From NCBI GenBank assembly GCA_027604185.1, contig JADGKB010000191.1:1-17895 (forward strand): a stretch of 17,895 bases of DNA, written 5' to 3'. Each line of letters opens with the position of its first letter. Position 1 is the stretch's first letter. Source of the DNA: Boothiomyces macroporosus. Lineage: Eukaryota > Chytridiomycota > Chytridiomycetes > Rhizophydiales > Terramycetaceae. This document shows, one piece after another, positions 477-17,691 of the stretch. The position numbers and the translations under genes are program-made. The notes under the pieces were generated by a model. The model made no database searches, was not told the DNA's origin, and saw only the letters and a program-made list of their open reading frames with translations.

Positions 477-2121
477 ATGAAACTCCCTGTGGTAGATTTA
501 TACACTCTCGTCAACTTGCATTCACCCTCCCACCCATTCACTCAGCAACCACTCACACAAGATCCCATTTCTGCTATCGACACTTTTCAAGTAACTCATC
601 CAATCACACTTCCCAATAAGCCAAAATGCTCTTCAGTTCTGTTAGAGCACCAGTTTCCTTTTTCTTATGGCAAGCCTTACGTTGGTAACTACACCGTACC
701 ACCGTCTTGCGGTAAATCGTGGGAACAGATTGTTTTAACGTTGAATGGATCTGTATCTGGCCGACAGTTTGATAGAGTTGGTGCTATTTGGATTGACGGT
801 GTTGAAATCCTTCGATTAACTGGTGCAGAGCCATCAGGTACTCCAATAACTCGGTGGCAAGTACAAAAAGTAATTCATTTTAATTCAGGACATTACTGAG
901 TATTCTGCATTGTTTGGTGGTTTGAATAGTGTTGTGTTTGCATATGATAATGTTGTTGATGGCACTTATACTGGTATCTTTAATTTCACTGTTTCCATTG
1001 ATTTCTACAAGGGAAAGAATAGAGATGCTCCAGATTCAGTCCTACCGCTGTCTTTATCTAACAACACTTATGGCTGGGCTACTTTGCCAACTACCAACCT
1101 TACTACTTTTGTTTTACCCAAGCTGCCACCAAACTTGGAACGAGCAGAAGTGGAAATCTACGTATCTGGCCATGGTAATGACGAGTTTTGGTAGTTGATT
1201 GTTTACATAGGTATACTAATTTACCAAATGCATTGGCTCAACCACAAAACCAATTGTTTGGCGGAGGCACTTATAAGGAAATTGATCTGTTCATCAACTC
1301 CAAATTGGTTTCTTTTGAGCCTATTCCACCGACTGTATACACTGGCGGAATGAATCCGTTGCTTTGGAGACCTATTGTAGGTATCGATACATTCAACCTC
1401 CCACCAATTACTTTTGACATTACTCCATTTGCTTCATTATTATTCCAACCAAATTCCAACATTGGTTTCAATGTTAGTTTTGCTGCCAATTCATACTGGC
1501 TAGTCGATGCTAATCTAAAGATATGGGTAGACAAGAAGAACAAAGGAAAGGAATTCAATGGTAAATTAGAGTCGTTTGCTATTAACCCAACTATTCCTAC
1601 TGAGCTTTACTCTGGTGATTTGAATAACTTGGTGATGAATACTACGGTAAAGAATAGCTTTTCAGCTAAAGGTAAGCAAGTCTAATATAGGCTCTATAAA
1701 AACATCAAGAGGTACTGTCACAACAAGAGTAGAAAAACAAGTATCGTTCACAAACCAGAACCTTGTAACTGAACAAGGCAACAACCAAGTCTTTATTCAA
1801 TCCACTAACGTCAGTACTACTGTAACAGTGTCTAGAAGAGACGTGACTGTTAGTAAGAAACACAAAAAGAGATATCCGTTCACTGGTTTACTAAGCGCCT
1901 TGTCTGCAAACTCTTACTTGACTACAATCACTCATGGCAAGCGCGAAGAAACTGATGATTACTTGCTGGACACACTCTTGTATGCCAATGGCACATTTGG
2001 TGGAGCCAATTATGCCACCACTAACCAGAATTATACATTTATAGATTCAAAGCAATGCTACAAGCGAAATGTTGCTGCTGCTGGCAGAGTGCTTGTTTCA
2101 GACATTTATCCGAAATGTTGA
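477..2121 (+). CDS. Peptide-N-glycosidase A-like protein (PNGase A family), 4 exons
   Basis: The spliced product is 528 residues from exons 477-869, 889-1190, 1211-1671 and 1691-2121; introns are 19, 20 and 19 nt. The family removes N-glycans from glycopeptides in secretory or acidic compartments. Seen in the sequence: FQVTHPITLP near residue 37, FPFSYGKPYVGNYTVPPSC, the family signature GRQFDRVGAIWIDGVEILRL across residues 98-117, and RWQVQKDITEYSALF, whose second half reads correctly only after intron 1 is removed. Each intron is set by restoration of such continuity (for example GHGNDEFW to YTNLP). The C-terminal half is beta-rich, with Asn-x-Ser/Thr sites, as in the family. Odd: the first 30 residues show no clear signal peptide although the family is normally secreted, so the true start may be in an undetected upstream exon. 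The pdxT-like gene starts 31 bp after the stop. Family assignment is firm; enzymatic activity is inferred. Confidence 0.85.
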
Positions 2122-2128
2122 AATAAAT

Positions 2129-2134
2129 CACGTG
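2129..2134. promoter_or_regulatory. CACGTG palindrome in the 31-bp intergenic gap
   Basis: The gap between the PNGase A stop (2121) and the next ATG (2153) holds AATAAA at 2122-2127, then CACGTG at 2129-2134, then a T-rich run. CACGTG is the E-box bound by fungal bHLH factors such as Cbf1 and Pho4. AATAAA could serve the upstream gene as a poly(A) signal. Both are six-base words, so the functional reading is tentative. The position is suggestive because the whole downstream promoter must fit here or overlap the upstream gene. Confidence 0.3.
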
Positions 2135-2152
2135 TTTTTCTTTCATTTTTTC

Positions 2153-2748
2153 ATGACAGGACAAAAGACTGTAGGCAAGTACTATTTAACCCAGGTGTCT
2201 TGGCCTTACAAGGGGCATTCAGCGAGCATATCCATACACTCCAGAAACTAGGAGCAACAACCGTACAGGTAAAGAAACAAGAGCACTTGGATGAAATCGA
2301 CGGATTAATCATTCCAGGCGGAGAGTCAACCACAATGTCACTAATAATGCAACGCAACGGTCTAATTGAACCTCTTAAGTCATTTATCCAATCAGGGAAG
2401 CCAGTCTTTGGTACTTGCGCTGGTCTAATAATGCTCTCCAATGAAATTACCAACCAAAAAAAAGGTGGACAAGTTAACTTGGGTGGGCTTGATATTACAG
2501 TTGAACGAAATGCTTTTGGAGCACAGTTGGATTCGTTTGTATCTGACTTGGATCTGACTATTGGCAAATTCCAAGGAGTGTTTATCAGAGCTCCTATTAT
2601 TAGCAGTGTTGGGGATAATGTTGAAGTTATTGGCAAGTACAATGATAGAATTGTTGCTGTTAGACAAGGGAATATTTTGGGGACTAGTTTCCATCCCGAG
2701 CTTACTCATGACACAATGGTTCATGAATACTTTATTAAAATGATTTGA
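2153..2748 (+). CDS. SNO1-like (pdxT): Pyridoxal 5'-phosphate synthase glutaminase subunit (PdxT/Sno type)
   Basis: This is the class I glutamine amidotransferase subunit that hydrolyses glutamine and passes ammonia to PdxS/Snz for one-step vitamin B6 synthesis. Exons 2153-2174 and 2195-2748 give 191 residues, the usual length. After splicing the N terminus reads MTGQKTVGVLALQGAFSEHI, matching the family start; unspliced it breaks. Motifs seen: PGGEST (residues 48-53), nucleophile Cys82 in FGTCAGL, and the His174-Pro-Glu176 pair in SFHPEL. Together these are the complete Cys-His-Glu triad. The intron is 20 nt with a GC donor and AG acceptor (2175-2194); no GT donor gives the right phase. The partner synthase gene is not in the window. 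The gene lies head-to-tail 31 bp after the PNGase A-like gene and convergent with Psf1. Confidence 0.93.
2175..2194 (+). other. 20-nt GC-AG intron of the pdxT-like gene
   Basis: The intron reads gcaagtactatttaacccag. The donor GCAAGT is the standard strong context of GC-AG introns, and TTAAC lies just before CCCAG. It is phase 1. Removing it restores KTVGVLALQGAF; nearby GT positions give wrong frames. Confidence 0.85.
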
Positions 2749-2831
2749 ATTTTACTCTAGTGGTGATTTGATTCTTTTATCACTGTGCTAAATAGTAGCA
2801 CTACTGATCTGTACTTGTTTCTTTGATCTTT

Positions 2832-2945
2832 ACAATTACTCTGATATTTACTACACAATAATGTACAATTACTGTGATATTTACTTTGATAATCACTGTA
2901 CATTTACTTTGATAATCACTGTACATTTACTGCACAATAATTACA
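2832..2945. repeat. AT-rich degenerate tandem repeats between convergent genes
   Basis: The spacer between pdxT and Psf1 (2749-2999) is AT-rich and holds repeats built on TTACT, TGATA and TGTACA words. A 23-bp period is nearly exact over two copies at about 2880-2928 (actttgataatcactgtaca twice). A second related pair around ACAATTACT(C/G)TGATATTTACT begins at 2832 and 2865, 33 bp apart. It probably covers both 3' ends. No gene is seen. Confidence 0.7.
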
Positions 2946-2999
2946 ACTGTAATAAAACTGTCAAACTACAAAAACAAAATATTTCTTGATAATTAAATA

Positions 3000-3488
3000 T
3001 TAGACTACAACTAAATGCCCCGACATTATCAAATCTTGAACTTCTGCTTTTTTAAGATAATACTGCGTCCCTAGTCTAAGCGGCAACACACCCATCTCTG
3101 TCATTATTTCACCTTGATCAAAAACAAATTTACCACACTCTTTAACAACCCTCACTTCAACAAAAATATTCTTTGGTGGCTCATCACCCTGATTCAAATC
3201 GATATCCAAATACAATCCTTTCAAATCCCTCACGAGTTGCTTATACTCGTTGATAAACGCTTGCTCTGATGGGCTGCTAACATTGACTCCGTTCCAAATT
3301 AGTTTACATATCTTGTCTAGTTTTTGTCTTTGAGCAACAAGGACGATTTGCTTGTTCTTTTTTACTACAGACAGACTGTTTTTCTGTAAGAGTAAATGTT
3401 TTATTTCTAAAAGGACTGCGTTGAGAGTCTCTTGTTTGTACTGGTGCTTTAGTAGTAATAGTGCTTGATCTGTGTAGAACTGTTTCAT
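3000..3488 (-). CDS. PSF1: GINS complex subunit Psf1
   Basis: Psf1 is one of four subunits of GINS, which joins Cdc45 and Mcm2-7 to form the replicative helicase in the nucleus. The frame is intronless, 162 residues, somewhat shorter than the usual 190-210. It shows the N-terminal helical A domain (MKQFYTDQALLLLKHQYKQE), then SPSEQAFINEYKQLVRDLKG near residues 82-101, a family landmark. Then follows PPKNIFVEVRVVKECGKFVF and a C-terminal B domain ending in YYLKKAEVQDLIMSGHLVVV, where the family has a sequence like FLRRxDVExLIRQGxL. The missing length falls mainly in the N-terminal half. It converges with the pdxT-like gene; its upstream region carries the 24-bp and 13-bp tandem repeats. Assignment comes from the order and spacing of these motifs. 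Confidence 0.88.
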   Translation of the reverse strand: MKQFYTDQALLLLKHQYKQETLNAVLLEIKHLLLQKNSLSVVKKNKQIVLVAQRQKLDKICKLIWNGVNVSSPSEQAFINEYKQLVRDLKGLYLDIDLNQGDEPPKNIFVEVRVVKECGKFVFDQGEIMTEMGVLPLRLGTQYYLKKAEVQDLIMSGHLVVV

Positions 3489-3565
3489 TAGAGATTTATT
3501 TTATTTTCGGACAAGTTTTTCTTTCTGGACAGAAAATCAACCAGTGTCTTTATCCACATGTTATG

Positions 3566-3660
3566 CCTCTGTTGTTTACCTATGTATTACCTCTGTTGTT
3601 TACCTACGTATTACCTCTCTGTTGTTTACCTATGTATTACCTCTGTTGTTTACATGTGTA
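3566..3660. repeat. 24-bp minisatellite, about 4 copies, upstream of Psf1
   Basis: The unit is cctctgttgtttacctatgt followed by atta. Copies run 3566-3589, 3590-3613 (one change, TATGTA to TACGTA), 3614-3639 (two extra bases, CT) and 3640-3660 (diverged and truncated). It starts 78 bp upstream of the Psf1 ATG on the promoter side. The period is a multiple of three, which creates a spurious Leu/Tyr-rich reading frame that I do not call a gene. Confidence 0.9.
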
Positions 3661-3719
3661 TCATTTACCTATACTTGATATCGCTTGAGTAATGACAATA
3701 CTTATCATTAGAGCTGTGA

Positions 3720-3757
3720 GAGATATCCGCAAAGATATCCGGAAAGATATCCGCAAC
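3720..3757. repeat. 13-bp tandem repeat, 3 copies, AGATATCCGSAAA
   Basis: Three consecutive copies of agatatccg(c/g)aaa occur at 13-bp spacing, each holding the palindrome GATATC. They lie in the 319-bp interval between the Psf1 start (3488) and the Hsp70-like stop (3808). They may be protein-binding sites for Psf1 transcription or simple slippage products; the sequence alone does not decide. Confidence 0.75.
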
Positions 3758-3807
3758 ATTAAAGATCAAATTATACTACAAAGAAGAATGATAAATTGAA
3801 TTTATTC

Positions 3808-5656
3808 CTACAACTTTTCATCTTCCCAAATAACAGAATCACCACTCAAATAGCTCTTGCTGTCAACATGGTAAACTTGCAAAATAACTTCAGTAGGATG
3901 GAAAATGATTTCTACTCTAAAGGTGTTGTTATGGCCAGGACGGATGTAGGCTGGCGGCACTTTTAACACACATGATAGAGCTACTTTCATCATCATATCA
4001 GTGCTGACTTGGCGTAATAGTTGGAATCGAACTGTCTTTGAGGAATCTGATGGTGAAAGAACTGGAACTGGTACTTTATGATTTAGAGGCATTTCTTCTC
4101 CTGCTGTCGTAATTTCAAAGTAATCTTCGTAGTAATAGTTTGGTGGCTGCTTGTAAATCTTTCTGTTTGGTGGTGGTGTTTCTGTTTGCGGATCATAGGC
4201 TTTGGAATAGAGTAAATAGTAGGAATGGGACCATATACGACGCGACACTTTACCAGGATTAAATCCAAAATCAGCTGCACCTTTCAAAATAGCACTGCCT
4301 GGATCTGGTGGGATTGTGATTCCAATCTTGTACTTTTGGCCAAATGTATCACGAACTCTTTCTGCTAAATAAGGACACCCAGCCAACCCACCAACAATCA
4401 ACAACTTTGTGGGTCTCTTTCCCTTGAAGATCAACTTTTCAAAATATTGCTCCAATTCATAGATTACAGTGTCAATAACTGGATCAAAGAAGCTAGCCAT
4501 TTCTTCAGCAGTCAATTCAATCTTGTCATCACAGCCATGCTAAATTAACAATAGACTACCTGATATTCTCTTTGTTTAATCAAAGATTTTTGCATCAGAG
4601 ACATTTCACTGTATATTTCGCTAGGGATATCAATAGAAGCAAAGCAATAATCATTGTCAAAATCATCCTTTGTAAGCAGTCTCTTTTGTGGTTCAAAAGA
4701 ACTGATTAGCTTTAGAGCAATCTGGCTGTTCTTTGCCAATACGGTTTGATAACACTCTGGTCCTACTAGTCTCTGCACAAAATCCAAAAATGCTTTGTCA
4801 ATGTGAACACTTCCTGCCTAATATTAAATTAAAGTACCAAAGCACCAGCCGGAGGAATAATCTCAGCATGGTCTCCACTTTCCAATACTTCATGCGAAGT
4901 AATATCAGTAGTACCACCACCGATATCCAATGTCACGACTACATCATTAGGGGCCATGAATGGAGAGTTCTTTTGGATAAAGATGGACGCAGCTTGTGGT
5001 TCATAGCAGAGCAATAACTTTGAGCTTTCTAATGAATCAATCATTCCGCAGTCGAAACAGGCTTGTCTGGTCTTTGCTTTAGCGGTTGGACTCCAAATAG
5101 CAGGTACTGTAACAACCCACTGCACAGGATCATTGTTATGACCTAGTATTAGATCATGAAATTCGTAATCAAACACATTCATCCAATTACACTGTCAGAC
5201 ATACCTTGATGGTGCTTGATAATGTCTTCTGCAGTTGATTTCATGTAAGCCAAAAAGTCACACATTACTTTTGCCAAAGTAACTCCAGGAGGCAACGGCA
5301 CTGCTTGAGTATTTGTAGGATCCAACAATAGCTTGAATCGTTCAACGTAAAAGTAATCAGGATTTCCTTGTAGTCTGAAATAATTGATTTTAGCTGACGT
5401 CCCATATTTCAGCGGTTCCCAGACACCTTCATTACCATCAATTACCTTTAGTTCTCTTGTATAAAATTGAAGTGATATCCTTGGCATACGGCACCGACTG
5501 GTTTGGCCAATTCGCTTTTGTCAGATACTGTCCGAGTTGTTGGTCCGTTCCTGCGTTAATAAGACAAACCTAGCTTGACAGCGATACCTGAATAGGCGGT
5601 CTATATTAGTCTAATTGTACCCCCATATCTATAGAAGCGCATATTTGGGTTTCCAT
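3808..5656 (-). CDS. HSPA12-type Hsp70 ATPase-domain protein, 7 exons
   Basis: Exons (transcript order) 5656-5621, 5600-5570, 5550-5499, 5479-5205, 5142-4838, 4817-4560 and 4539-3808 give 562 residues, typical of the family. HSPA12 proteins keep the actin/Hsp70 ATPase fold but have an atypical C terminus. Seen: phosphate-1 loop SIDMGTAYSG (residues 8-17, joined across intron 1), VQWVVTVPAIWS, phosphate-2 loop VTLDIGGGTTDI, AGSVHIDKAFLDF after a 20-nt intron, adenosine motif LLIVGGLAGCPYLAERV, and PDPGSAILKGA. Introns are 20, 19, 19, 62, 20 and 20 nt. Two points are weak: the 19-nt intron at 5480-5498 has no TAAY element and could instead be a one-base frameshift, and the 62-nt intron is far longer than the others. 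A decayed relative lies just upstream, so relaxed selection here is conceivable, but the last three exons (1,295 coding bases) are clean. Client and role unknown. Confidence 0.82.
5143..5204 (-). other. 62-nt outlier intron in the Hsp70-like gene
   Basis: The donor GTATGT and acceptor CTAATACTAG are both good. Removal joins DIIKHHQG to HNNDPVQWVVTVPAIW at the length expected for the family. Internal AGs do not allow a 19-22 nt intron here. The last 42 nt are open in the downstream phase, but using them would need a 20-nt intron ending in TT. Confidence 0.65.
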
Positions 5657-5937
5657 CCTCACAGAAAATTGCAAAGAAAGTGGCTTTGGGAATCTCGGCA
5701 ATTTCAACCACAAAGAAAATATGAAAGGAAATTGGATGGAATAGAGTCCATTTTTATATGATGGAAGTGAGTCTAGTATGGTGTGAATTTAGTGTATCGG
5801 TGATCGTGGTTGGAAATACCCCAACCATCGTAAACTGTTGGATGCAGACAGTACCAAAGTAACTCTCCTCAAAGGCGAATTATATCATTGAATTTGGATG
5901 GTGCAAGATCTCTGGAATAACAATGGTTTATTCATAT
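5657..5937. other. Spacer between the Hsp70-like gene and its pseudogene
   Basis: No gene is called. It must contain the promoter of the Hsp70-like gene. On the minus strand a frame without ATG, roughly 5774 down to 5603, is open for about 57 codons and reads HIFFVVEIAEIPKATFFAIF in part. It runs out of phase over the Hsp70 first exon. It may be a remnant of the decayed paralogue's C terminus or another exon, but I cannot match it. Confidence 0.35.
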
Positions 5938-6570
5938 TCAAAATTCATGAAAAGTACTGCCGCCTTCAACATGATTATTCTTAATCTCTGTTGGATGAAA
6001 TACAACTTCTCTAAATTGTTGTACCGCCCACTGGCAATATATTCTTCTGGAATTTGAATGTTACAAGTTGGTGCGTTTTGCATAATCAAATCTGCACTTG
6101 GTGATCTGAACTGGACAACTTGTTGGTGTCTCTTGGTGTGCGCATGTTTACTCTTACCTTGTGATTTGGCTGCATTTCTTCACCAGCAACAGTGATTTGC
6201 AAATAGTCATCATAGAATCTGTGATCGTATACTTTTCTATTTGGTGGGGGCGAGCCATTAGTGGGATCGAATTGCTTAGAGTAGAGCAAAAAGAATGAGT
6301 GGTTCCAAATACGATGAGATACTTTTCCTGGATTGAACCCGAAATCAATTCTTCAATGTATTTTTCCAGCTCAGTGTTGATTGCATTCATAACTGGATCA
6401 AAGAAACTGCAGCTTCAGCAGCAGATAATTCCTTGTAGATTTCAATTGGAATATCATAGATGCAAAGCAAAAGCCATCTTCTAGGTTCTACCGAAAGTAT
6501 GCGACTCAAAGCTCTTTAGCAGCTGTAGCGGAATTTGGCAGTCTACAATTGCTGTTCCTACTAATGGCTC
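5938..6570 (-). pseudogene. Truncated, frameshifted HSPA12-type paralogue
   Basis: Minus-strand translation in shifting frames matches the downstream Hsp70-like gene in order: a LVGxxxxxxQIPLQLLKSFE region (6570-6485), FCFAS, IPIEIYKELSAAEA, SFFDPVMNAINTELEKYIEEL, then directly FGFNPGKVSHRIWNHSFFLL, and SPPPNRKVYDHRFYDDYLQI to about 6190. Against the intact gene there is no N-terminal half, so the first phosphate loop and the LDIGGGTTDI region are gone. About 40-50 residues including the adenosine motif are deleted near 6350, and at least four frameshifts or stops occur. The substitutions show a divergent paralogue, not a recent copy. Exact ends are uncertain. Confidence 0.8.
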
Positions 6571-6744
6571 CGGGGGAATGTCGCTCTGAAGGGGTCTGCC
6601 CTTTGCCCAATCCCAATTATGGGTGGGATTAAATTATACATGTCAGTCAGCAATTTTTTGTCAGCAATTGTTTTAAATTTGTTCAACTTTGAAACCCCCC
6701 AATGTTTTTTGTGGCACAGCTGCTCAAAAAAAACTTTGAAAAAA
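6571..6744 (+). promoter_or_regulatory. Upstream region of the MTAP gene
   Basis: The 174 bp between the pseudogene and the MTAP start contain an inexact direct repeat, CAGCAATT near 6650 and 6663, and A-rich runs next to the ATG (6724-6745). No TATA-like element stands out. An in-frame open stretch extends upstream of 6745 to 6619, but it shows no homology to the family, so the start at 6745 is preferred. Confidence 0.35.
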
Positions 6745-7693
6745 ATGACAACAATTCTAACTTCAGTGTCCAATGTATCAATCGGTGTTATCGGAGGCTC
6801 CGGATTATACTCTCTCGATAACCTCAAAGTCCTAGGTGAATATTCTCCAACCACGCCTTGGGGAAAGCCATCAGACAACTTGATTATTGCAGAAACCAAC
6901 ACTGGGATCAAAGTTGCATTCTTGGCTCGTCATGGCAGAGGGCATTACCTAACCCCAACCGAAGTGCCATCTCGTGCAAACATTGCAGCCTTGAAACACA
7001 TTGGGGTTAAAGTTATTCTTGCTTTTTCTGCTGTTGGATCCCTTCGTGAAGAAAGTAAGTCCAAGCTAATTTAGTCGCTCCAAGAGACTTTATCTTGCCA
7101 ACCCAAATCATTGACAGAACCAAGGGTGTAAGACCATTCACCTTCTATGAAGATGGAATCGTTGGGCACGTCATGTTTGCCGATCCATTCTCTTCAGACA
7201 TTGCCGATATCATTTATGATGTTCAAAAGGACTTGAATGGACCTAAATTCCACAGAAACAAGACTTTGATTTGCATGGAAGGTCCACAATTCTCCACCAG
7301 AGCTGAATCGCACATGTATAGGTAACCAAAATTAATTTTAGAAGCTGGGGTGCTGATATCATCAACATGAGTGTATTGCCAGAAGCTAAATTGGCAAGAG
7401 AAGCTGAAATTGCTTACCAAATGGTGTGCATGTCCACCGATTACGATTGCTGGAAAGAAACCGAAGAAGCAGTCTCTGTCGAAGCTGTTATCGCTAACTT
7501 GACTGGAAATGCAGACTTTGCTAGAAAGTTGTTGGGATCTGTTATTCCTGTTTTAGCCGAAAAGTTGGAAAAGAGCCAAGTTAAGAGCGTCATTGATCTG
7601 CAAGGAAGTGCTTCCAACTCATTGATGACTGCTCCTGGAAAGAGAAACGAAGAAACTATGAAAAAAATCAGATACATCTTGCCAAGCGCGTAA
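6745..7693 (+). CDS. MEU1/MTAP-like: S-methyl-5'-thioadenosine phosphorylase, 3 exons
   Basis: The enzyme splits methylthioadenosine, a polyamine-synthesis by-product, with phosphate into adenine and methylthioribose-1-phosphate, the first step of methionine salvage. Exons 6745-7054, 7075-7321 and 7342-7693 give 302 residues (human about 283, yeast Meu1 337). Seen: [10 protein letters not shown] near the N terminus, [15 protein letters not shown] (phosphate site), [43 protein letters not shown] (base and ribose site), [20 protein letters not shown] and STDYDCW, where the conserved Asp residues select adenine-type substrates. Both introns are 20 nt and fall inside otherwise unbroken motifs: REE|IAPRDF and MYR|SWGAD. 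ATG 6745 is chosen because it gives a normal-length N terminus. The gene converges with the Rim15-like kinase; the two stops are 95 bp apart. Confidence 0.95.
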
Positions 7694-7788
7694 TAAATCT
7701 CATATCATCTGATGGATTTCCAGCTTTTACTCATTATATTTGTGGTCCTATGATTTGACTCGTTTCAATCGATATTAACATGATTACT

Positions 7789-10700
7789 TTATTGTAATGA
7801 TAAATTAGAACGTGTGGATAGCGCAGCCAAAACATTAGTCCTGTTCACTGGTCGCTGCAGCACTGTGTCAAAAGTAGAGTTATTCTTGTATCCTGGAGGC
7901 ACTAGAACTATAATTGGGGTTTTGGAATTAATATTCGATGTGGTTTTAATCATTTTGCAAATTGCTTCTGCATTCACTAGGTTAATAATATTTACACAGC
8001 GGTATATTGATATCGGCAAAAATAACATCATACTTGGTTTCTCCAATAGCAAGTTGCAAGGCTTCATCACCAGTCTTTACAAGTGTACATTTACAATTCA
8101 AGTTTTGAAGAATAGTTTCTAATATCTTGGCACTTACAACATTGGAATCTGCAATTAACACTTCCAGCGTCTGTTCAAGAGCAAATGTTGGATCTGCAAG
8201 TTGAATAGCCTGTTCATCGTCAGCTAATCCTAATGGCTTCAAAGGCAGGTCCAGATATACAGGTGAGCTTTCCCTCTTTGTGCCAAACAAGGATTGTTTT
8301 GCACTTTCTAGGTATGCTTGTGACGATGACGATTTGCGCGAGTCTGTCAGCTGCGAAGTCGAAAACACAGAAGATGATTTGGAAATATCAGTAAAAGGAT
8401 TTAGAGGCTGCCCCTGTGCAGACATTGGCTGCTTAAAGGTTGTTGAGCCAAAATCGGAAGATGGTGTCAACAACGATGCAGAAGCAGCAGTTGGGAGGGA
8501 CGAACTGACTGTTTTATAGTTCTTTCCGCCCCCTGTTAAAGATATTGACGACATGAATTCATTTCGCATGCCCGAGTTGGCAATACTATTGACAGGCAAA
8601 GATTCTCTTCTATTGTGATTCTGTTTTAACGGGTGGTTTCGTGGGCTTTTAGATGGGATTTGTATAGGTAGTGCAGGGATTCCGAAAGACGGAAGAGAAT
8701 CTCTTCGCTTTTGTAACCACTGCTCTCCCTCTGGGAAATCTTGGTTAATTTTTGACATGATTTGCTGATTTGCTTTCTCCAACAGCGGCAAGTTCTTGTA
8801 TACCGCCTCTCCAAAATCTGGCCCAGTTGTAGGCAATTCCTCTCTCACATTGTCATCCGAGTAGTTTCCATTTTTGTTATTTTCATCAGAGTCTGATAGA
8901 TTTCCCTTTTGCACACCTCTAGAGTCGAAATAATCCGTGTCTTCAATATTCTTTACCGACGGGATAAAGAAAACTTTTTGACTAGTCAGATTATCCCAAG
9001 GGGTTTCAGCAAACCAAGCCATTTGCTTGACCTCTGTCGCACCTCTTGATCCAAGCCTGCTTTCAACATCTGTACACATTAATCTTTCCATGAGCTGTCT
9101 GGCATCATTTGACACTTCAATATCTTCTTCCATCCAATCAATTTTTCGTAGTAAAATGTTTTCAAATACTTGTGGAGGAGTAGGCGCATTAAAAGGCGGG
9201 ATACCATACAGAAACTCGAATAAAATCACACCTGCAGCCCACTAAAGTTAATTTGATTTACCCAATCAACACTTGTGCCTTGTCCCATCCCTAAAATGCT
9301 CTCTGGTGCCAGGTAGTCAGGCGTTCCTACCAATTTTTTCTGGTTTCTCTCCTCCATTTTCTCAGTTAACCTTCCTCCGTAAACAAACGAATCATTTGAA
9401 CTGATACTGGCAATGGATTCACGCCTCGCTAGATGGTTTTTTAGCAAGAACGGTGCTTGAAAAGATCCGCCATTGAGAGCATCAGATATTGGCGACTGGG
9501 GAGGCAAACTTGGCTTGAGACAAGATGTGGACCCTGAAATATCTCCAACTCCAATAGCTCTTCTTCCCAAGAACCCAATTTTGGACAGTCCAAAGTCCGT
9601 CAATTTAATATGGCCATCGGCATCAATCAGCATGTTATCTGGCTTCAAATCGCTAAATTAAATTCCAAATACCGATGAACAATATCTCTTTGATGTAGAA
9701 ATTCCAACCCAAGAATCATTTCAGAAATGTACTGTCTAGCCCAAGGTTCATCCAACTGCCCAAAGGACTTTAAAAGTGCTGCACAATCTCCCCCGTTCAA
9801 AAACTCCATCACAAGATAAATATGATTTTTGGACTGAAATGTAGAATAGAGTTTAACTATGTATGGGGAATCGAGCTGCGTCAATATCGTTCTTTCTGAT
9901 TTGATGTTCATTACTTGGTTTTTGGCCACCATGTCCGCTTTCTTTAGGACTTTAATAGCAAAATACATTCCTGTGATTTTCTTTTTAGCCAAGAACACAG
10001 AGCCAAAGGCACCTTTCGAAATAGGTTTTATAATTTCATAGTCTTTGATTGTTGGGGCTTGCATTGAAGGCGAGGTTGCAATACTTGAGTTGATTGAAGC
10101 ATTGGACAAATTGGAGTATGAAAAGGATGACGACATCATGGTGTTGGTATTGAGGAAACTTGGTCTTCGCGAAGTGTGAAGGGGCGAAGACACTACAGGG
10201 GAGCTGGTGACATCTATTTCAAATGATTTATCATGGCCAACAACCATCCGTGGATTTCTCATTGATGTGGTACGCGGTAATATCGGGGTATCATCTTGAT
10301 CACTGTGTGTTTGAATTCGAAGAGACTTGTGTTTATGGAGCCGCTTATGTCGCGCAACAAGTGGTTCAATTGGTGTAAGTGGCGCTAATGGTGATATAGG
10401 GGATCCAGGAATTTTATCTGGCGAATCACCTCCAAAAAGTGTTGCTGGCGAAATTTTCATTACAGGATCGTTGGCGACTGCCGAGAATGGGCTTTTACTA
10501 GGAGTTGAAGTTGTAGCCGAATCAGGGGGAATGGCAGACGGTAGCGACTCTTTTGAAGATTCTTTCACCGATTTGAGATTCATGGTTGATGGAATTTTTA
10601 CGACCACCCCTCCAACTTCCAATAAATCGCTTTTTACATCCTCACTCTGCACATCGCTCATCGAAGCCATAGCAGCAGTTTGAATACCAATTTCTACAAG

Positions 10701-13594
10701 TAGTGATTGATCTGCAGTCAAACAATCGCTATATTCTACAGATTCTTTGACCAGCTTGTCAACCAAGAATTGCTTTCGTTCTACCAGATCTCTTATTGCC
10801 CGTCCAATGGTATATATTCCATATCCAATTGAAAGTACCCCATCTTCCACAATTGGCTCAGGAACAGTTGTATTGTCAATCACGAGCGGCTCAAATTTAG
10901 GCAAGAATTCTGCCTCAGGATTGCACTCCCATCGCAATAATGGCGGGAACAAGTCCAAAACCGCGCTATCATATTCAATACTTTCATTGGTGCGGTTCGC
11001 TTTTATAGCCAAGAGTTTTCGCAAGATTTCCAGTATTGTCTTTGTCAATTCATCAAGTTTTTCCAAATACTGATAATACATTTTTTCTGTCGCCCTTGCT
11101 ATTTTTGTTTGCTCCTTATCCAAATCTTTTTGTACAGATGCAATCTCCTCCTTCAACAACCCCTCCTTATCTTCACAATTTTCCCGTAAAGCTTTGATTT
11201 CGTCATTTAGCATAACCAGATCCATCTGGGTTTTGTGGAATTTCAAACATATTTCCGTATGGACAGAGAAATGAATTGCCGGACAACTTCTTTCGCAAAT
11301 GTTACATAACGCAAGATCTAAATTTGGAATTGCTTCTTGCTCGTCAAACAACAAGTTTGGATCAAACAGAGACTTTCGCGAAGTTTGTATGGGGCTTTCA
11401 TCTGGTTTCAACACTTTGACCGGTTTCGCAATCCAGACGCTACTATTCAGCAATCTATTCGAATCAAGAGTAATCATCCCTTTTGCTTCAATTTTGACTT
11501 TTCTTCCGTCCTGTCTTCTGGCCAAAAAACTTAATTCGATTGTATTTTTTTCTCTATTTGCATTCAACGCCGCTTCATGGAGCACATTTCGATCAAACAA
11601 AAAAGGAATGTTGTCGCATCCAACTACATCGCTGGGATCGTACTGAAACACCTTTTTACAGGAATTGGAGCAAAAAATCACCGACCCAGTGTTTGAAAGC
11701 TCCAACAGCACAGTGAGATTAGGATCATCTTCTTTGAAATTATCAGCAAAGGCGTTCGCAAGGCTTCTACGTCCTTTCTTATGTCTCAGCTGTCTAAGGG
11801 GTCGGCGAGGCGGACTATCATGGCTATCCGAATCTTCAAACTCTTCATAATCTCCATAATCACTGCTATCTTGTCCTCCAAACGAAGAAAGGGATGCCCT
11901 ACCAAGTGTACTAGTATCTGATCTTTTGTTGTTTAATTGAGATGTTCTCCTGACTTGGGGCTTCTTTTTCTCCCGCGACAAAGCAGTCCAATGGCGAATA
12001 TCCTCTTCAAAATGCTCCATTAGTCTGGCAACACTTGCAAATACGATCATTAATCGGACAATTAATTCTTGGAATGGCCAATCAGGATTACTGCCCCATA
12101 ACTGCAACAAATTCTGTAATCGCGTAATAACAGTCTTTGTGGTAGAAGGAGCCATTAATTGAGCTAAACTCAAATCCAGAGTGCTTTGTGCTGTTGCTAT
12201 TACAGAAGCCAGGGCATCCATAAATTGCTCGTCCTTGATTTTCATTGAGTTTACCAGCTTCATGCTATTTGACGCAATCTTTTTTCTCATTGATTCACTG
12301 GAAGATATTTTAACTAGAGATTTCCCGCCTTGGTTGTCAGCCATTTCAGAATTTGCTAAATTAAGATAATCGTACATGCAATTCGTTCAATATTTACTCT
12401 TGGCAATTGGTATGTATTTGTAGAATGTCGAGTGAATAAATCGTTGAGAGAATCTCGGATTAGCGCCATATACCTTTTAAATTCTTGTCATTTTCTTCGT
12501 ATGAATAGCCGCTTGCCAAGGTAATACTGTGAGATTTTTCTAATGCCGAGTCATTCATGTAATCTTTCGGTGCTCCACGTATATCACTACTGAATGGCTT
12601 AATGTCTGGCTTTATTTCCACTTTTTCTGAATACTCCATCGCTTTCTGAACCACTTCTTGCAGCTCTTCCAAAATCTTTTTGATTTCCGCGTTACAAGAA
12701 GACTGGGCCACCGCCAAGCTTTGTTTTAGATCTGCGAATCCTTTCAAATACTCATTCAAATCTCCATCAGAGTGACTCTTGTTCAGGTTTTTTTCTAGAT
12801 TAAATACACAAACCTATATCAGGTGTTGATCGTGTTCCTGATGATGGAAGCGGACTGTTTTTGGTTGAATTCCCTGTTGAAATTGAAAAATTCTTTTGCA
12901 TCCGTAATTTAGATAAAGGGTTTCGCAGCTCTGTGTCAGAGTCATCGTCAAGCGAGAAGCCAGGTGAAGGACTCCTCATATCCCGCATTGGAAATGGTGA
13001 TAGCACGGGAGAATTTATCTGTCTTCCTCTCGGCGCATCCTTTAATGGCTCATACTTTAACTCCAGCAAAAATGGTAACGGTGATTCGCGAACTGGCGAT
13101 TGCTGGATTCCTTCATGCCAGTCCGGCCATATTCCATTATTCTGGTATCTCCACAAGTAATTTTTTGCTCTTCTGTTGTTTTCTACGACTTGGGTATACA
13201 AGTATATATCCCTCGTAGTCATCAATGAAGCCAGTTTCTCTAATCTATCTCTTCTTGATTCTCTAGTGTTGGATTTTATCTGTGCTTCATTTGGGGACCA
13301 TTTCGGTAGTTGAGGCAGGGAAGCAGACCTACAATTAGAAGATATAACCTAGAATTAAAAAGAGCTAAACCTGAACAGAAATGAGCCGCGAGTATTTTCT
13401 GGTAATACAGGCTTCTTTTTCTTCTTTTCTTCTCTATTTCGTAAATTCAATCCGATAGATTTCCGTTTAAAGTCGTTGTCGAACGACATTCCAAGGGGAG
13501 AAGGCGGTTGGGGTTCATGTGAGAGTGCGTACGGATTCAAAGGGGATAGTCTCCGGTCTACTTTTGCAGTGCGCTTCTTTGTCAAGGACTCCAT
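7789..13594 (-). CDS. RIM15-like: Rim15-like PAS/AGC protein kinase with C-terminal receiver domain, 8 exons
   Basis: Rim15 kinases integrate nutrient signals (TOR, PKA) and drive quiescence, acting through endosulfines. Exons (transcript order) 13594-13371, 13328-12814, 12794-12474, 12453-12376, 12355-9673, 9652-9262, 9241-7996 and 7976-7789 sum to 5,646 nt, 1,881 residues (yeast 1,770). Domains: Ser/Pro-rich N terminus; PAS about 595-700 (LTVLLELSNTGSVIFCSNSC); a CxxC...HxxxC zinc finger about 725-750 (CNICERSCPAIHFSVHTEIC) followed by a coiled coil; kinase from about 1145 with SKGAFGSV, AIKVLK, HRDLKPDN (made across a 20-nt intron), DFGLSK, an insert of about 80 residues, then GTPDYLAPES and DWWAAGVILFEF; receiver about 1763-1878 with DVIFADINIP (acceptor Asp about 1814). 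The receiver has VLQRP where Lys-Pro is usual, and IADSN lacks the full acidic pair, so phosphotransfer may be lost, as seems true in yeast. Start chosen as the first ATG of its frame; further upstream exons are possible. Confidence 0.9.
7977..7995 (-). other. 19-nt intron inside the receiver domain
   Basis: It reads gtaaatattattaacctag on the minus strand, phase 1, with TTAAC just before the acceptor. Removal continues the receiver from DVIFADINIP to LLNAEAICKMIK. It is listed as a typical example of the intron class in this window. Confidence 0.88.
13329..13370 (-). other. 42-nt double intron (22 + 20 nt units, abutting) in the Rim15-like gene
   Basis: The interval consists of two complete intron-like units with no exon between: 13370-13349 starts GTTTAG and ends TTAATTCTAG; 13348-13329 reads gttatatcttctaattgtag. 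Removing all 42 nt joins NTRGSFLFR to SASLPQLPKWSP in frame, while removing only the first leads to a stop. It may be spliced as one 42-nt intron or as two consecutive ultrashort introns. Confidence 0.75.
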
Positions 13595-14258
13595 GTAGAT
13601 TCCCCAAACACGGTTTTTGAAACTGGAAACAAAAACGTAATTCAAAAAACATTAAATCTGAACTCTTTTCGGATTAGAAATCTGGATTTCTGGATTATTA
13701 GGAGCATACTAGGATTGAAAGTATAGATATCTTTTGCTTTCGAGTGGCCAGTCTCGTCGTCTCTATTGAAGCTTGTGAGATTGAATGGTAGACTGCTTAG
13801 TGGATAATCAGCATAAATATTGAGGATGGATAGCAAGAAAGTCTCTCTTTTGCACTTAGTGCTCAATCCAACTTTGTAATTCTGGCATTGAGTCAGATTT
13901 ACAGTCTCAAGCTGATTACACTCAAGAGCCAAGTTGACTGATAGTTCCCAAGCCAACTGCGGTTATTAATTTCTACTATCCAGTATAATTGTCTGTATAC
14001 ATCATTTGCCCTTTTTGCCAATTAATTTGCAGGCTTTTTCACACAATTTTTCCGGCTAATAGTCCCAAAAATAAAGCAATCGATGAAACGCAACAGCAGA
14101 TGAATAGATCGTTTGTAGATCATTATTGCGTTCATACCCGCGTGTAAACCGTATGCGGAAAAATAATGTTTTGTCATTACTCCGATTTAATCGCCTCAAC
14201 CCAACTCAGAGGTGGCTTTGGCTATTAAGTTTACAATTTTTTTGGCGAAAAACTTTGA
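13595..14258. other. Divergent region between kinase and secreted-protein genes
   Basis: These 664 bp lie between the outward-facing starts at 13594 (-) and 14259 (+). The right part (about 13977-14258) shows no gene and should hold the promoter of the secreted-protein gene. The left part holds an open minus-strand stretch, described separately. No known promoter element is obvious. Confidence 0.4.
13642..13956 (-). CDS. Unassigned minus-strand open frame, possible exon
   Basis: A 104-codon frame without its own ATG begins directly after a perfect 20-nt intron-like element (13976-13957, gtagaaattaataaccgcag). It contains NQLETVNLTQCQNYKVGLST and DIYTFNPSMLLIIQKSRFLI. A 41-nt excision from a GT at 13664, ending at TTTCCAG, would fuse it in frame to the codons preceding the kinase ATG. 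That would make it an N-terminal extension of the Rim15-like protein. Alternatively it is a separate small gene or a chance frame. I recognise no domain. No upstream start codon could be tied to it. Confidence 0.3.
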   Translation of the reverse strand: MAWELSVNLALECNQLETVNLTQCQNYKVGLSTKCKRETFLLSILNIYADYPLSSLPFNLTSFNRDDETGHSKAKDIYTFNPSMLLIIQKSRFLIRKEFRFNVF

Positions 14259-15151
14259 ATGCAATTTATCTTGTTACTGGCTCAAATAATTTTATGTCAA
14301 CCTCCGGTCTGTACCAAAGATCAAACACCGCAGGATAATAATTGTCTGCCAGTTGTTGGCAGTTCTGTTCAGGATACTACTGGTAGCGGACCAAGCGGGG
14401 GTAATAGAAACTCATTATAGGCTATGTTCCAAACGGTGTGAGTATTACTGGTCAAACTTCTTCGCAGAACGGACAGGGAAACGGAAACGTAGTTGGAACT
14501 GTCAGCTGCTCACAGTTTCCAAATATCGAGAAACAAAAGCTGCTTCTACAATGTGGGACTTATTTGGACTTGAACTCTATCGCTTCGACTACTATTTATT
14601 CCTTTGTGCAATTATGGCCAACTTCTATCACTCAAGTTTGTACCCAAAAGTGTAGTCAGGGCGTTACTACCATAGGAAGTGACATTTTAGCAAGCAATTG
14701 TAAAACACAAATATTTGCCGGATCAATGACTTTTAATGCTTTGAATTTTTTATTACAAGTCATATTTAATGCTGGCTGCGTTCAAGACACGAAAGGAAAC
14801 TTCTGTCTTTTGGATCAACTACCATTGATTAAACCTATCCTAGATGCGAATGCGGATCCTGATAAAGCCATAAATGCTGTAATATTATATTAATAATAGA
14901 TTCTCAATAACACAGCTATTGCATGTTCAAAATGTGCAGTAAATCAGTATCAAGCGATTACAACCGCTGCTTCAAAGTACCCAGACACAAACACCAGTGC
15001 TATCTTTAAGCCGTACTTGACAAAGTGGGCCAAGACGTGTCAAATCCAACCTCAGCAACAACCAGGCATGTCAGTAATTGATCAAAATGGTGCTTTATCA
15101 TACTCGCTGTTTCTACCCTTTATGCTTATTGTTTTTATATTAAATATATGA
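14259..15151 (+). CDS. Secreted, probably GPI-anchored Cys-containing protein, 3 exons
   Basis: Exons 14259-14400, 14421-14878 and 14900-15151 give 283 residues. The N terminus MQFILLLAQIILCQPPVCTK is a short signal peptide. The body carries scattered cysteines (CTKDQTPQDNNC, SCSQFP, LLQCGTYLDL, VCTQKCSQG, NCKTQ, AGCVQ, IACSKCAVNQ, KTCQIQ), suggesting a disulphide-bonded extracellular domain. The C terminus, SYSLFLPFMLIVFILNI, is hydrophobic and ends the protein, as in GPI-attachment signals. Gly/Ser/Asn-rich linkers follow the signal peptide. Introns are 20 and 21 nt; the second is the only single ultrashort intron divisible by three and carries in-frame stops. The family is not recognised; a cell-wall or surface role is inferred from topology. 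The first ATG was chosen because only it yields the signal peptide. Confidence 0.75.
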
Positions 15152-15287
15152 TTTAATTAGATATGCTTTTTGTCCCAAGAATCTGACAAGTTGCTCATAA
15201 ACACCAGATCTTTTACCAAAGGGATAGCCTAAATGTCAGCTCAGATTCAGACTTCTTTTTCGGTTAGCAACAATCCTAATCTTAAAT

Positions 15288-15767
15288 ATGTTGAATGATG
15301 AATTGTTACCTACTCTTGTGAATCATATCGTAGATCGTGTATGTCACGTGTGAAGATTAATGAAAAGCCTGCGGTATTGTTTAGAGGGACAGATTTGAAG
15401 TTGGGTTTCACCTACTTATTTGAAGAATCATCAATCTACACCTGGAATCTTTATACAAAATACCTAAGAATTTCTATTGCCCCTAGTACAGTCACAATGA
15501 CACTACCATTTTACATCACCAGGTAAAGGAAACGCAATGAATATACTTGCTCAAAATGATCTACCAATTTGGAATACAACCAGCCTATTTCGATTTTTAT
15601 GCGGTCAGTGGCCTTTTTGCAGGTTCAAATATCCAAATTGTTTATTTGAAGATGCGGCAGAGTATTTCCGAGTTTCTTTATTCGATGGCGGCAGGTAAGC
15701 AATTCTAATTAATGCTACAAGCAATATTAAAGTCATCTATCTGCGCATTCGGTCTTTTTGTCTTTGA
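15288..15767 (+). CDS. Tentative small gene of unknown function, 4 exons
   Basis: A consistent model is 15288-15347, 15368-15485, 15523-15694 and 15722-15767 (131 residues; introns 20, 37 and 27 nt). Protein-like segments are MLNDELLPTLVNHIVDRV, PAVLFRGTDLKLGFTYLFEE, YTWNLYTKYLRISIAPS, NAMNILAQNDLPIWNTTS and AEYFRVSLFDGG. The middle segments faintly recall beta-sandwich modules of fungal secreted Ser/Thr-rich proteins, but I do not claim a family. No signal peptide is seen in the model, the introns are less typical than elsewhere, and two frames overlap in 15550-15690. It could be a decaying gene or a gene with a different exon set. The next gene begins 29 bp after the proposed stop. Confidence 0.35.
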
Positions 15768-15796
15768 CAATTTAGGCAAAACTTTTTCAATCCAGA

Positions 15797-17691
15797 ATGG
15801 GACATAAAAGACCAGCAAAAAAGAGAAATTTCATGGAACAAGCCACGACATATTACGACCCAGAGGCTGCTCGTACTAGAATCGAATCCATTCTCAATAG
15901 CACTCCCACGAGTGACGTAATACAAACTGCCCCTGTTTTGAACTACATGGAACCGCTTGACCCTATCAAACGAGACCCTACGTACGATTTTAAAAAAAGG
16001 ATCAATGAAAATCAAGAAGTAGACAGGCGATTGTTTGTTACCAAGGCTCTCCCTTCTCTAGTTGGAATATCTCTTGCATTGTTGCTTGCACTCTTTTCCT
16101 ATTTCATTTTGCCTGGAGATGCAGACAAGCTATCATATATTCAGACCCAGCTGGCAATAGGAAACGTCAAAATTGGCAGCTGGACTATTTCTGTTCACAG
16201 TGTAGTTGCAGCCATTGTTACTTTTCAGGGAATGTTGCTGGGGTTGGCCGTTGCGATATCCGTACTGATTCAACTAATTATAGACACCACTCTTAACTTG
16301 GTACTATATTACAAAAGTTGGAGTCCCGTATACATTCATTGACTCGTCGAAAAGTGTAGTTGGCAGTTTGCGTGCCATCAAAAGTGGAGCAAAGGACTTT
16401 AAGCCCTACATCTTTGTTTCAATCATTTATTTGGTGTCTTTGATTTTTAGAAGCGCAGATAATATCGCACTATCCTCTTTTATTTTTGAAGCGCAGATAT
16501 CTGAATTTGGAAAGGTCCAAGTATACGATACTAGTAGTTTAACAGACTTTAACCCATTCTACTTGGCGGTTAAAACAGACGACCCTGTGAATGCACAAAG
16601 TGACATTGTGCTCGCTGAAGGCTCTCAGCCGTTTCATTCTGCTCTTGGGTCTGTTTCTAATGGGAATTCAAATGCGGAAATCAGCTCAAGAAATACTTCC
16701 AACATATTGGCTTGTGATTCATGCGAAGCCAGCGTTCAGATTGCAGCAGACTATAATATCACCTGTGTTCCTTATTCTGAACCTAACAATGGCACTGCCT
16801 TCATCAATTCAACTGTACATGGAATTTTTGCAAAAGGGCCAATTGCTGACCAACAGGTGTACTTTAGAGTAGGAGTTCGGTGGTATGTAAGCATAACTGA
16901 CGGGGAAAATTTCAATCATGTTAACTGCACCATTTGGGCTGCAAATTCTACCCGATACGAGAGCAGTGCTGGAGGTACACAGCAAAAGGACGTTGGAACA
17001 GTACATTCTATAGAATTGATAGACAGATACGATAAAGCATTCAAATGGCCAGTAGAACTTCCGTATGACAGCACTATAACATACGAAGGGGCAGAATTTC
17101 CATCCGTTCCGCTATACTCTGGATCCTTGAATAACAGCTACTACTATGAGACACCATTGCCCTTCTACGTCATTGGATCATATTCATTAATGCTACAAAG
17201 GTATGGATTTGGAAAATGCCAGTACGAAGATTTTGCCATGTAAGAGTTTTTAATATAGGATTGGAAACTGTGGAAACCTCTACGATTTTCCTTTCACGAT
17301 AAAAGATACATACAGTGATATCCAGTATAAAATCGAACAGATAACTGAAAAATACTATCAGAATATGTTTTACTTGAGGTTTAATAGCATTATAGAAGTT
17401 GACGGCATGAATCACTATTTCGCAACAGTAACAAGAAAAGCGTCAATGATGTGGGTAATAATGCTATTCAATATGTTTAGCATTTGCGTTCTGCTCAGTG
17501 CGATATTCGTGATCAGCTCTGTAGATATCCCAATTAAGCTGGGAGTTTTACAGCTGTCGATTCTTTCATATCGGTCAAGACTATTTGAAAGGGATCAGTT
17601 TTCAAGTGAAAAACAGTTGCGGGAAAAGTTTGTGGTCAAAGTTGTGGAACATGAAGGGATCTTTTGGCTACAGCGACAAGATAGAGAATAA
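15797..17691 (+). CDS. Multi-pass membrane protein with large extracellular domain, 3 exons
   Basis: Exons 15797-16261, 16284-17239 and 17259-17691 give 617 residues. The start MGHKRPAKKRNF is basic and cytosolic in character. Hydrophobic segments: LVGISLALLLALFSYFIL (about 91-108), a segment ending LLGLAVAIS (about 135-160), a segment with FVSIIYLVSLIF (about 190), and near the C terminus WVIMLFNMFSICVLLSAIFV. Between the third and fourth lies an extracellular-looking region of about 300 residues with many N-glycosylation sites and Cys pairs (LACDSCEAS, HVNCTIW, GNCGNLYDF). Four-helix proteins of this shape are common as orphan families in fungi; I know no function. Introns are 22 and 19 nt: the first restores AIS|TPLLTWYYITK, the second DFAM|IGNCGN. 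An alternative end, removing 17632-17656 (25 nt), would run to 17782 in another frame. Confidence 0.75.

Follow-up and report, generated by a model that had tools for sequence, protein, structure and literature searches.

Probable introns of 19 to 22 nucleotides across the sampled genome of a Boothiomyces-like chytrid fungus

The window, i.e. the whole 17,895-nt stretch of DNA analysed here, carries seven genes, and the spliced frames of all seven closed. On the plus strand lie a PNGase A-like gene (477-2121, spliced product of 528 aa), a Sno/PdxT gene (2153-2748, 191 aa), an MTAP gene (6745-7693, 302 aa), a gene for a secreted-type protein (14259-15151, 283 aa), and a membrane-protein gene (15797-17691, 617 aa). 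The minus strand contains an Hsp70-like gene (3808-5656, 562 aa) and a Rim15-like kinase gene (7789-13594, 1881 aa), which has the eight exons and 1,881 codons that an earlier note on this DNA had proposed. That note had also proposed seven closed frames and about 20 introns of 19-22 nt, and both statements held: 20 GT-AG introns of this size were placed in six genes, and all 12 of the coordinates listed in it were exact GT-AG segments of 19-20 nt. The seventh gene, Sno/PdxT, has a single 20-nt candidate with GC-AG ends (2175..2194), which closes the frame with a VGVLALQGAF start as in SNO proteins and gives a first exon of only approximately seven codons.

Ten of the 20 tiny junctions match annotated proteins of related chytrids. 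Both 20-nt introns of the MTAP gene have junctions that are gap-free against 4glf; the junction residues at 7055..7074 are identical in P0001, with one adjoining substitution in P0002, and those at 7322..7341 are identical in both proteins. In the Rim15-like gene, the 20-nt introns at 9242..9261 and 9653..9672 fall within the kinase motifs DW|WAAGVI and HRDLKPDN, respectively, and both motifs are uninterrupted in P0121 (Boothiomyces sp. JEL0866), P0122 (Terramyces), and P0123. In the same gene, the junction of the 19-nt intron at 12795..12813 is that of P0121 and P0122, the junction of the 20-nt intron at 12454..12473 is that of P0122 in a stretch absent from P0121, and the junction of the 19-nt intron at 7977..7995 is that of P0121, P0122 terminating here with two different residues. 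For the PNGase A-like gene, the protein is uninterrupted across the 19-nt intron at 870..888 in P0230 (Boothiomyces sp. JEL0838) and P0231 (Terramyces). The 20-nt intron at 1191..1210 has the junction of P0230, P0231 being two residues shorter at this point, and the 19-nt intron at 1672..1690 has the junction of P0231, P0230 being gapped by 14 residues.

The other ten tiny introns were placed by frame closure and motif alone. In the Hsp70-like gene, the 20-nt introns at 4540..4559 and 4818..4837 were given by a gene finder as well as by frame closure, and those at 5427..5445 (19 nt), 5551..5569 (19 nt), and 5601..5620 (20 nt) by frame closure; the alignment of this protein with solved structures was too weak to fix its tiny-intron junctions. 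Frame closure also placed the 20-nt intron at 12356..12375 in the Rim15-like gene, where the flanking residues are unlike those of the relatives, the 20-nt GT-AG intron at 14401..14420 and the 21-nt intron at 14879..14899 in the secreted-type protein gene, and the 19-nt GT-AG intron at 17240..17258 in the membrane-protein gene. In the last gene, the frame is restored at 16262..16283 by a 22-nt intron whose branch motif is CTAAT; two other readings, an intron of 17 nt at 16301-16317 and a homopolymer (A4) error at that site, were therefore rejected. Eight other segments restore this frame, all of them 31-76 nt long.

Two longer introns were present in the window. The Hsp70-like gene has a 62-nt intron, GTATGT...CTAATACTAG, at 5143..5204 (gene finder and frame closure), and the Rim15-like gene has a 42-nt intron at 13329..13370, whose junction is that of P0121 and P0122 and which may alternatively be read as tandem intron-like units of 22 nt (13349-13370) and 20 nt (13329-13348). 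The tiny-intron habit put forward in the earlier note is thus modal but not exclusive, and the genome is not one in which virtually all introns are tiny, as in Stentor or mikrocytids.

For the length distribution beyond the window, an EM gene finder was started from bare GT/AG ends and a length prior that was flat over 10-200 nt, and run on a 217-kb sample. It predicted 109 introns, 70 of which were 18-24 nt and 68 of which were 19-22 nt, with the mode at 20 nt; this modal length below 30 nt and narrow spread are those of the ultra-short class. Six wrong-dinucleotide controls, each run for four EM rounds against six for the GT/AG run, gave 0, 1, 0, 3, 1, and 1 introns at 19-22 nt. The peak was identical in an earlier run with fewer genes (47 of 70 introns at 19-22 nt), the final run having an improved background model. 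In a separate test for segments that restore a reading frame and have the branch A at -6, 87 passed and 60 of these were 19-22 nt long, compared with 2/35, 1/10, and 1/4 in three controls. The peak was absent with the branch A at -5 (4/14 segments) and with the branch A at -4 and any GT donor (4/26). Across the whole genome, the pattern GTAAGTN{1,31}TAATTTAG had 37 of its 41 matches at 19-22 nt, when 15-45 nt were permitted. The proposal of a modal 20-nt intron is therefore borne out across the sampled genome, by the gene finder on 217 kb and by the whole-genome pattern, and this size ranks with the smallest introns described.

The 21-nt class is inflated in this sample, since 17 of its 20 stretches were chosen near matches of a 21-nt pattern, which 8 of the 70 tiny introns fit exactly. 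The gene finder was a crude tool, which called 52 genes in 217 kb and built three models in the window, and it was nearly blind to tiny introns that leave the frame open. Its Rim15-like model had three wrong long introns and missed the tiny ones at 12356..12375, 12454..12473, and 12795..12813. We regarded its 26 predictions above 80 nt as mostly noise, because the wrong-dinucleotide controls yielded 46-59 of that length and those in the window, of 178, 118, and 108 nt, were wrong by comparison with relatives; 11 of the 109 predicted introns, at 29-68 nt, are candidates. Among predicted tiny introns with a length that is a multiple of 3, in-frame stops occurred in 16 of 19; as the gene finder has a built-in preference for introns of this kind, no selection was read from the figure.

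The predicted tiny introns share the consensus GTAATT…yTAAy…AG, with the donor GTA(A/T)TT and an AU content of 74%. The GT-AG ends (70/70) follow from the construction of the search. A was found at +3 in 66 of the 70, G at +5, which is usual elsewhere, in only six, and G as the last exon base in 44. The A of the branch motif lies at -6 in 35 introns, -7 in 24, -8 in three, and -15 in two, and six introns have no motif. The motif yTNAy with its A at -6, -7, or -8, present in 62 of 70, is complementary to the GUAGUA loop of U2, and of the 64 introns that have the motif, 57 had a distance of 13, 14, or 15 nt from the 5' splice site to the branch point. The ends (GT-AG, rarely GC-AG) and the complementarity of the donor to U1 are those of U2-type introns. 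The Prp8 gene has two such introns, of 20 nt and 19 nt, whose flanks match the conserved protein (e.g., PWEQ|VREV), and the U2AF65 gene has two (20 and 19 nt) within its aligned part, with the junction HVE|FRTVDET. The gene-finder model for this U2AF65 locus was fused with an upstream frame and contained five predicted tiny introns, two of them inside the alignment; its 177- and 29-nt predictions were not relied on.

The true introns could be longer, at the 50-100 nt usual for fungi, the 20-nt reading being an artefact of picking GT...AG segments that reopen the frame. The 42-62 nt introns in the window fit this explanation, as do the sites at which annotated relatives depart from the tiny-intron models with longer gaps (e.g., P0230 at 1672-1690 and P0121 at 12356-12473). 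Nevertheless, we consider it very unlikely, since continuity is exact to the residue, with no spare residues, at the MTAP junctions, HRDLKPDN, DWWAAGV, and the Prp8 and U2AF65 junctions, and the 20-nt peak is absent from the wrong-dinucleotide controls. It is slightly less probable still that the segments stay in the RNA and that the broken frames reflect ribosome bypass, programmed frameshifting, or sequencing indels. The data are DNA only, and 47 of the 66 predicted tiny introns counted do break the frame; however, the segments have the GTA start, the branch motif, and the AG end in common, annotations of other assemblies have identical junctions, the conserved Prp8 gene carries both insertions between matching flanks, and the sole homopolymer-like case (16301-16317) is explained by a normal 22-nt intron. 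Minor (U12-type) or self-splicing introns, for which no point in favour was found, are the least credible, since the donors are unlike the U12-type consensus ATATCCTT/GTATCCTT, the branch motif (C/T)TAA(C/T) is complementary to the U2 loop, and a group I or II core needs far more than 20 nt, with zero Rfam matches in the window at gathering thresholds.

The earlier note had held that such introns would need a strongly adapted spliceosome, and had proposed a search for changes in U1, U2, SF1, U2AF, and Prp8. The comparison covered part of the machinery (U1, U2, U6, the first 342 residues of Prp8, SF1, U2AF65, and SMU1). Where compared, these snRNAs and splicing factors look conventional, and so do not bear out the first idea. 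The 5' end of U1 is AUACUUACCUG, which is canonical, in a gene match of 68.8 bits, 0.7 under the Rfam cut-off. The branch-recognition loop is GUGUAGUAUC in both U2 genes, and the ACAGAGA box of U6 is unchanged; both are canonical. The compared parts of Prp8, SF1, and U2AF65 align well with solved splicing factors. The U2AF65 match (230.7 bits against a family cut-off of 310.3) is low because the gene is split by introns. A reduced spliceosome of the microsporidian or mikrocytid type, with U1 unidentified and many proteins lost, was not indicated by the components surveyed, as U1 and U2AF65 are present and the SF1 and SMU1 genes were located. RED_N (PF07808) had zero matches here and zero in control genomes.

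Taken as sequence, the segments are very probably U2-type spliceosomal introns of the ordinary kind, reduced to an almost constant module of 19-22 nt, in line with the earlier assignment of spliceosomal-type introns to a fungus. Its proteins place this fungus in the Rhizophydiales, as a Boothiomyces chytrid or one closely related. Their positions, the module, the length mode, the spread in the sampled genome, the match of half of the tiny window junctions to relatives, and the canonical U1, U2, and U6 are established by computation. The module consists of a GTA(A/T)TT 5' end, approximately 4-6 free nt, the (C/T)TAA(C/T) motif, and AG, with the branch A 13-15 nt past the first intron base and the G of AG 5-6 nt past the branch A. 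We suppose that GUA is marked by U1 and that the branch A is taken by SF1 and then by U2. The nearest AG would be used without a polypyrimidine tract, for which 19-22 nt leave no room, and the intron would exit as a lariat with a loop of approximately 14-16 nt. Since some longer introns share the same 3' module, the distance from the 5' splice site to the branch point is presumably what shrank.

Several likenesses to the ciliate Stentor coeruleus, whose annotated introns are all 15-16 nt, appear in a published account (PMC9505925): AU richness (75.6% in Stentor), a nearly fixed branch A followed by a tail of 5 nt (5-6 nt here), the GUAAUU start of its commonest intron, and conserved U2 and U6 recognition sequences. 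In contrast to Stentor, for which the branch consensus is described as not strong, the chytrid introns are 19-22 nt with a clear yTAAy, coexist with longer introns, and mostly follow an exon G (44/70). Mikrocytos mackini (16-17 nt) likewise has narrow sizes near the lower intron limit, but it lives as a parasite inside cells, its spliceosome is strongly reduced, and 224 introns are predicted for it (PMC10245619), whereas SF1, U2AF65, SMU1, and U1 are present here and 70 tiny introns are predicted in 217 kb alone. Chlorarachniophyte nucleomorph introns (18-21 bp, cited in PMC10245619) are of the same size class in a relic algal nucleus, unlike the free fungal nucleus here. Paramecium and Nyctotherus also have ultra-short introns throughout the genome, slightly longer (~25 bp) and in another phylum (PMC5014332). 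Microsporidia, which are fungal relatives, share rather short introns but have few or none and a reduced spliceosome (PMC10245619, PMC8476143), whereas introns are frequent here. The earlier list of comparators had omitted mikrocytids (16-17 nt) and microsporidia.

Among the papers listed by our literature searches, none reported tiny introns in chytrids. Ultra-short introns have been described in ciliates (heterotrichs among them), in parasites of the Rhizaria, and in relic nuclei. The chytrid would be a separate instance within Opisthokonta, with the longer introns of the same genome as internal controls. Chytrids are kept in culture collections (PMC7537106), and the minimum distance from the 5' splice site to the branch point becomes testable. 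In the human B complex, two RNA helices are ~21 nt apart; assembly is lost as the distance from the 5' splice site to the branch point drops from 50 to 35 nt (as cited there), and short distances are tied to SMU1/RED (PMC6692369). We tentatively propose, at somewhat less than even confidence, that a near-complete conventional spliceosome in a free-living fungus excises 20-nt introns genome-wide, with the 5' splice site and branch A 13-15 nt apart (below the ~21 nt of the human helices), a GUAAUU donor convergent with Stentor, and unaltered snRNA recognition sequences. If so, sequence geometry, and not a rebuilding of the spliceosome, would fix how small an intron can be, and Terramyces and Kappamyces may have the trait as well. 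As a practical caution, chytrid annotations may be damaged by gene predictors unprepared for introns of 20 nt. In the MTAP record P0031 from Kappamyces, 18 conserved residues are missing around the position of the 7322-7341 intron, and the mis-splicing of a tiny intron is one possible cause.

The intron lengths were surveyed by EM gene finding in 217 kb (38.8% GC), comprising the window and 20 further stretches (199 kb), with bare GT and AG as the starting signals and a length prior flat over 10-200 nt. The gene finder returned 52 genes with 109 introns. Seventy introns were 18-24 nt long (19 nt, 6; 20 nt, 31; 21 nt, 20; 22 nt, 11; 23 nt, 1; 24 nt, 1), and of the rest, 26 exceeded 80 nt, 11 measured 29-68 nt, and two measured 10 nt. 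When wrong dinucleotides replaced GT and AG, six controls gave 76-101 'introns' each, with 46-59 above 80 nt and only 0-3 at 19-22 nt. The genome-wide habit of 19-22 nt introns proposed in the earlier note is therefore borne out in this sample, in which the length mode is 20 nt. Seventeen of the 20 sampled stretches were picked near matches of a 21-nt intron pattern, which 8 of the 70 tiny introns fit; without these eight, the counts for 19, 20, 21, and 22 nt are 6, 31, 12, and 11, respectively. The gene finder is crude: it produced only three models in the window, together holding seven tiny introns, and its Rim15-like model replaced genuine tiny introns or coding sequence with three wrong long introns.

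A frame-restoration test, which needs no gene model, was performed on this 217-kb sample, with 50-codon open flanks, a frame open only after removal of the segment, and a branch A at -6. Eighty-seven segments passed and 60 of them were 19-22 nt long, compared with 35, 10, and 4 segments in three controls, of which 2, 1, and 1 fell at 19-22 nt. When the branch A was set to -5 or -4, segments of 19-22 nt made up only 4/14 and 4/26, respectively. The pattern GTAAGT, then 1-31 nt, then TAATTTAG was searched in the whole genome (15.2 Mb, 216 contigs) and matched 41 times, with a total length of 19-22 nt in 37; the backward control pattern gave 37 matches in the 15.2 Mb, as a count without length breakdown. 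In the source assembly, other intron-pattern searches gave identical matches that repeat inside a single contig, near 53.7 kb (C10), 6.4 kb (C16), 45.1 kb (C20), and 18.8 kb (C65), which suggests segmental duplication or an assembly artefact.

The usual fungal donor is GTAAGT or GTATGT. The donor of the 70 predicted tiny introns is GTAATT (+5 T in 42/70 and G in 6/70; +6 T in 41/70), preceded by G at exon position -1 in 44/70, and their AT richness is 74%. The A of the branch motif yTNAy lies at -6 in 35/70, at -7 in 24/70, and at -8 in 3/70; the motif is distant in 2/70 and absent in 6/70. In 57 of the 64 motif-bearing introns, the branch A is found 13-15 nt past the first intron base, and the interval from branch to AG leaves no room for a polypyrimidine tract. 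Eleven predictions are 29-68 nt long, and 6 of them, the 62-nt window intron included, have the same motif near the 3' end. Among the 37 predictions longer than 24 nt, 17 have it, at least two of the 17 being wrong window models that end at a tiny-intron acceptor. Since the motif recurs near the end of longer predicted introns, a constant 3' module, with a stretch of variable length upstream of the branch, is likely.

Eight genes were rebuilt in the window, holding 20 GT-AG introns of 19-22 nt beside one 62-nt and one 42-nt intron. All 12 segments located in the earlier note were confirmed as GT-AG introns by their ends, with lengths of 19 or 20 nt, and its seven closing spliced frames, one of 1,881 codons, were likewise recovered. 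The frames close for the PNGase A-like (PF12222), Sno/PdxT (PF01174), Hsp70-like (PF00012), MTAP, and Rim15-like (1,881 aa) genes, and for a small protein of secreted look and a protein with membrane spans, the look and the spans being judged by eye and neither protein having a Pfam match. The intronless Psf1-like gene (3000-3488) scored 26.8 bits for PF24997, just below the cut-off of 27.

Since MTAP, Rim15-like, and PNGase A junctions match annotated relatives, whose annotations are predictions and not transcripts, 10 of the 20 tiny introns count as supported by relatives (2, 5, and 3, respectively); the other 10 are based on frame closure and motif. Boothiomyces belongs to the Terramycetaceae (Rhizophydiales, Chytridiomycota). 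The alignment of MTAP with 4glf is gap-free at both junctions. In Boothiomyces sp. JEL0838, the annotated MTAP (99% identity, two differences) has identical residues at both; in Terramyces sp. JEL0728 the spacing is kept and one residue next to the first junction is substituted. The Rim15-like protein is 93% identical to that of Boothiomyces sp. JEL0866 (P0121), a relative that carries kinase and response-regulator domains. Six of the seven junctions in the window protein agree with P0121 and/or the Terramyces relative P0122, and two of the six interrupt invariant kinase motifs (HRDLKPDN and DWWAAGV); the junction at 12356-12375 is without corroboration from relatives. For PNGase A, the JEL0838 protein P0230 agrees with the junctions at 870 and 1191 and has a 14-residue gap at 1672, and the junction at 1672 agrees with the Terramyces protein P0231, which is two residues short at 1191. 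The Kappamyces MTAP record P0031 lacks 18 residues near the position of the window intron 7322-7341, which could stem from a tiny intron mis-spliced by a gene predictor.

The strongly adapted spliceosome expected in the earlier note found no support in the parts of the machinery tested. Two U2, one U1, and one U6 genes were found, all with canonical recognition sequences. The Prp8 gene has its own tiny introns (20 nt at residue 45 and 19 nt at residue 91), and its first 342 residues align well with the Prp8 chain 9r8v_A; the alignment has a single inserted residue, which lies a long way downstream of the two introns. The U2AF65 gene carries 20-nt and 19-nt introns within RRM1, gap-free at both against 6xlv_A. 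SMU1 was found, as was SF1, whose gene has predicted introns of 21, 24, and 49 nt. From these results, the parts tested look conventional. A METTL16-type methyltransferase domain was also found, its family matching in 5/14 control genomes as well, and RED gave no match in the genome in a search without a positive control. The two U2 genes are diverged (L009, 142.2 bits; L010, 135.4 bits), with identical branch-recognition loops and different 3' halves.

The tiny introns are probably recognized by U1, SF1, and U2 and end at a nearby AG. U1 would pair with GUA(A/U)UU, giving up the pair with a +5 G; the branch A ~14 nt downstream would be taken by SF1 and U2, and the AG just past it would be used as acceptor; the steps beyond recognition we infer. 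In the human B complex, as given in PMC6692369, ~21 nt separate the helix of the 5' splice site from that of the branch. This exceeds the entire 5' splice site-to-branch distance in the Boothiomyces tiny introns, so that early complexes would be arranged otherwise or the two sites bound in sequence. Stentor, with a lariat loop of 10-11 nt in PMC9505925, faces the same spacing problem. The most abundant intron quoted there starts with GUAAUU, the prevailing donor of the Boothiomyces tiny introns, a likeness that may reflect convergence or mere AT richness.

Introns of 16-17 nt in mikrocytids, 18-21 nt in chlorarachniophyte nucleomorphs, and 15-16 nt in heterotrich ciliates appear in PMC10245619, and the excerpted survey of intron lengths in 644 fungal genomes (PMC8476143) describes no comparable ultra-short case. 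Among the matches listed, titles and abstract openings of the open-licence literature gave no report of ultra-short chytrid introns; in the sole listed paper with both 'Boothiomyces' and 'intron', the latter is a kit maker's name. Tiny chytrid introns are already implicit in public annotation, since the annotated proteins show database pipelines splicing many of these segments.

Further features were noted in the window. A possible 20-nt GC-AG intron lies in the Sno/PdxT gene (2175-2194, +). In the Rim15-like gene, the 42-nt intron (13329-13370, -) reads as complete tiny introns of 22 and 20 nt back to back, resembling a duplicated intron or a tandem precursor that is spliced in steps. The PNGase A-like and Sno/PdxT genes, which lie side by side (477-2748, +), are joined as one protein in P0230 and P0231; in the window they read as two genes with separate stop and start. 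A second Hsp70-like gene, in broken remnants judged by eye from ORFs (5928-6560, -), adjoins the intact-looking one.
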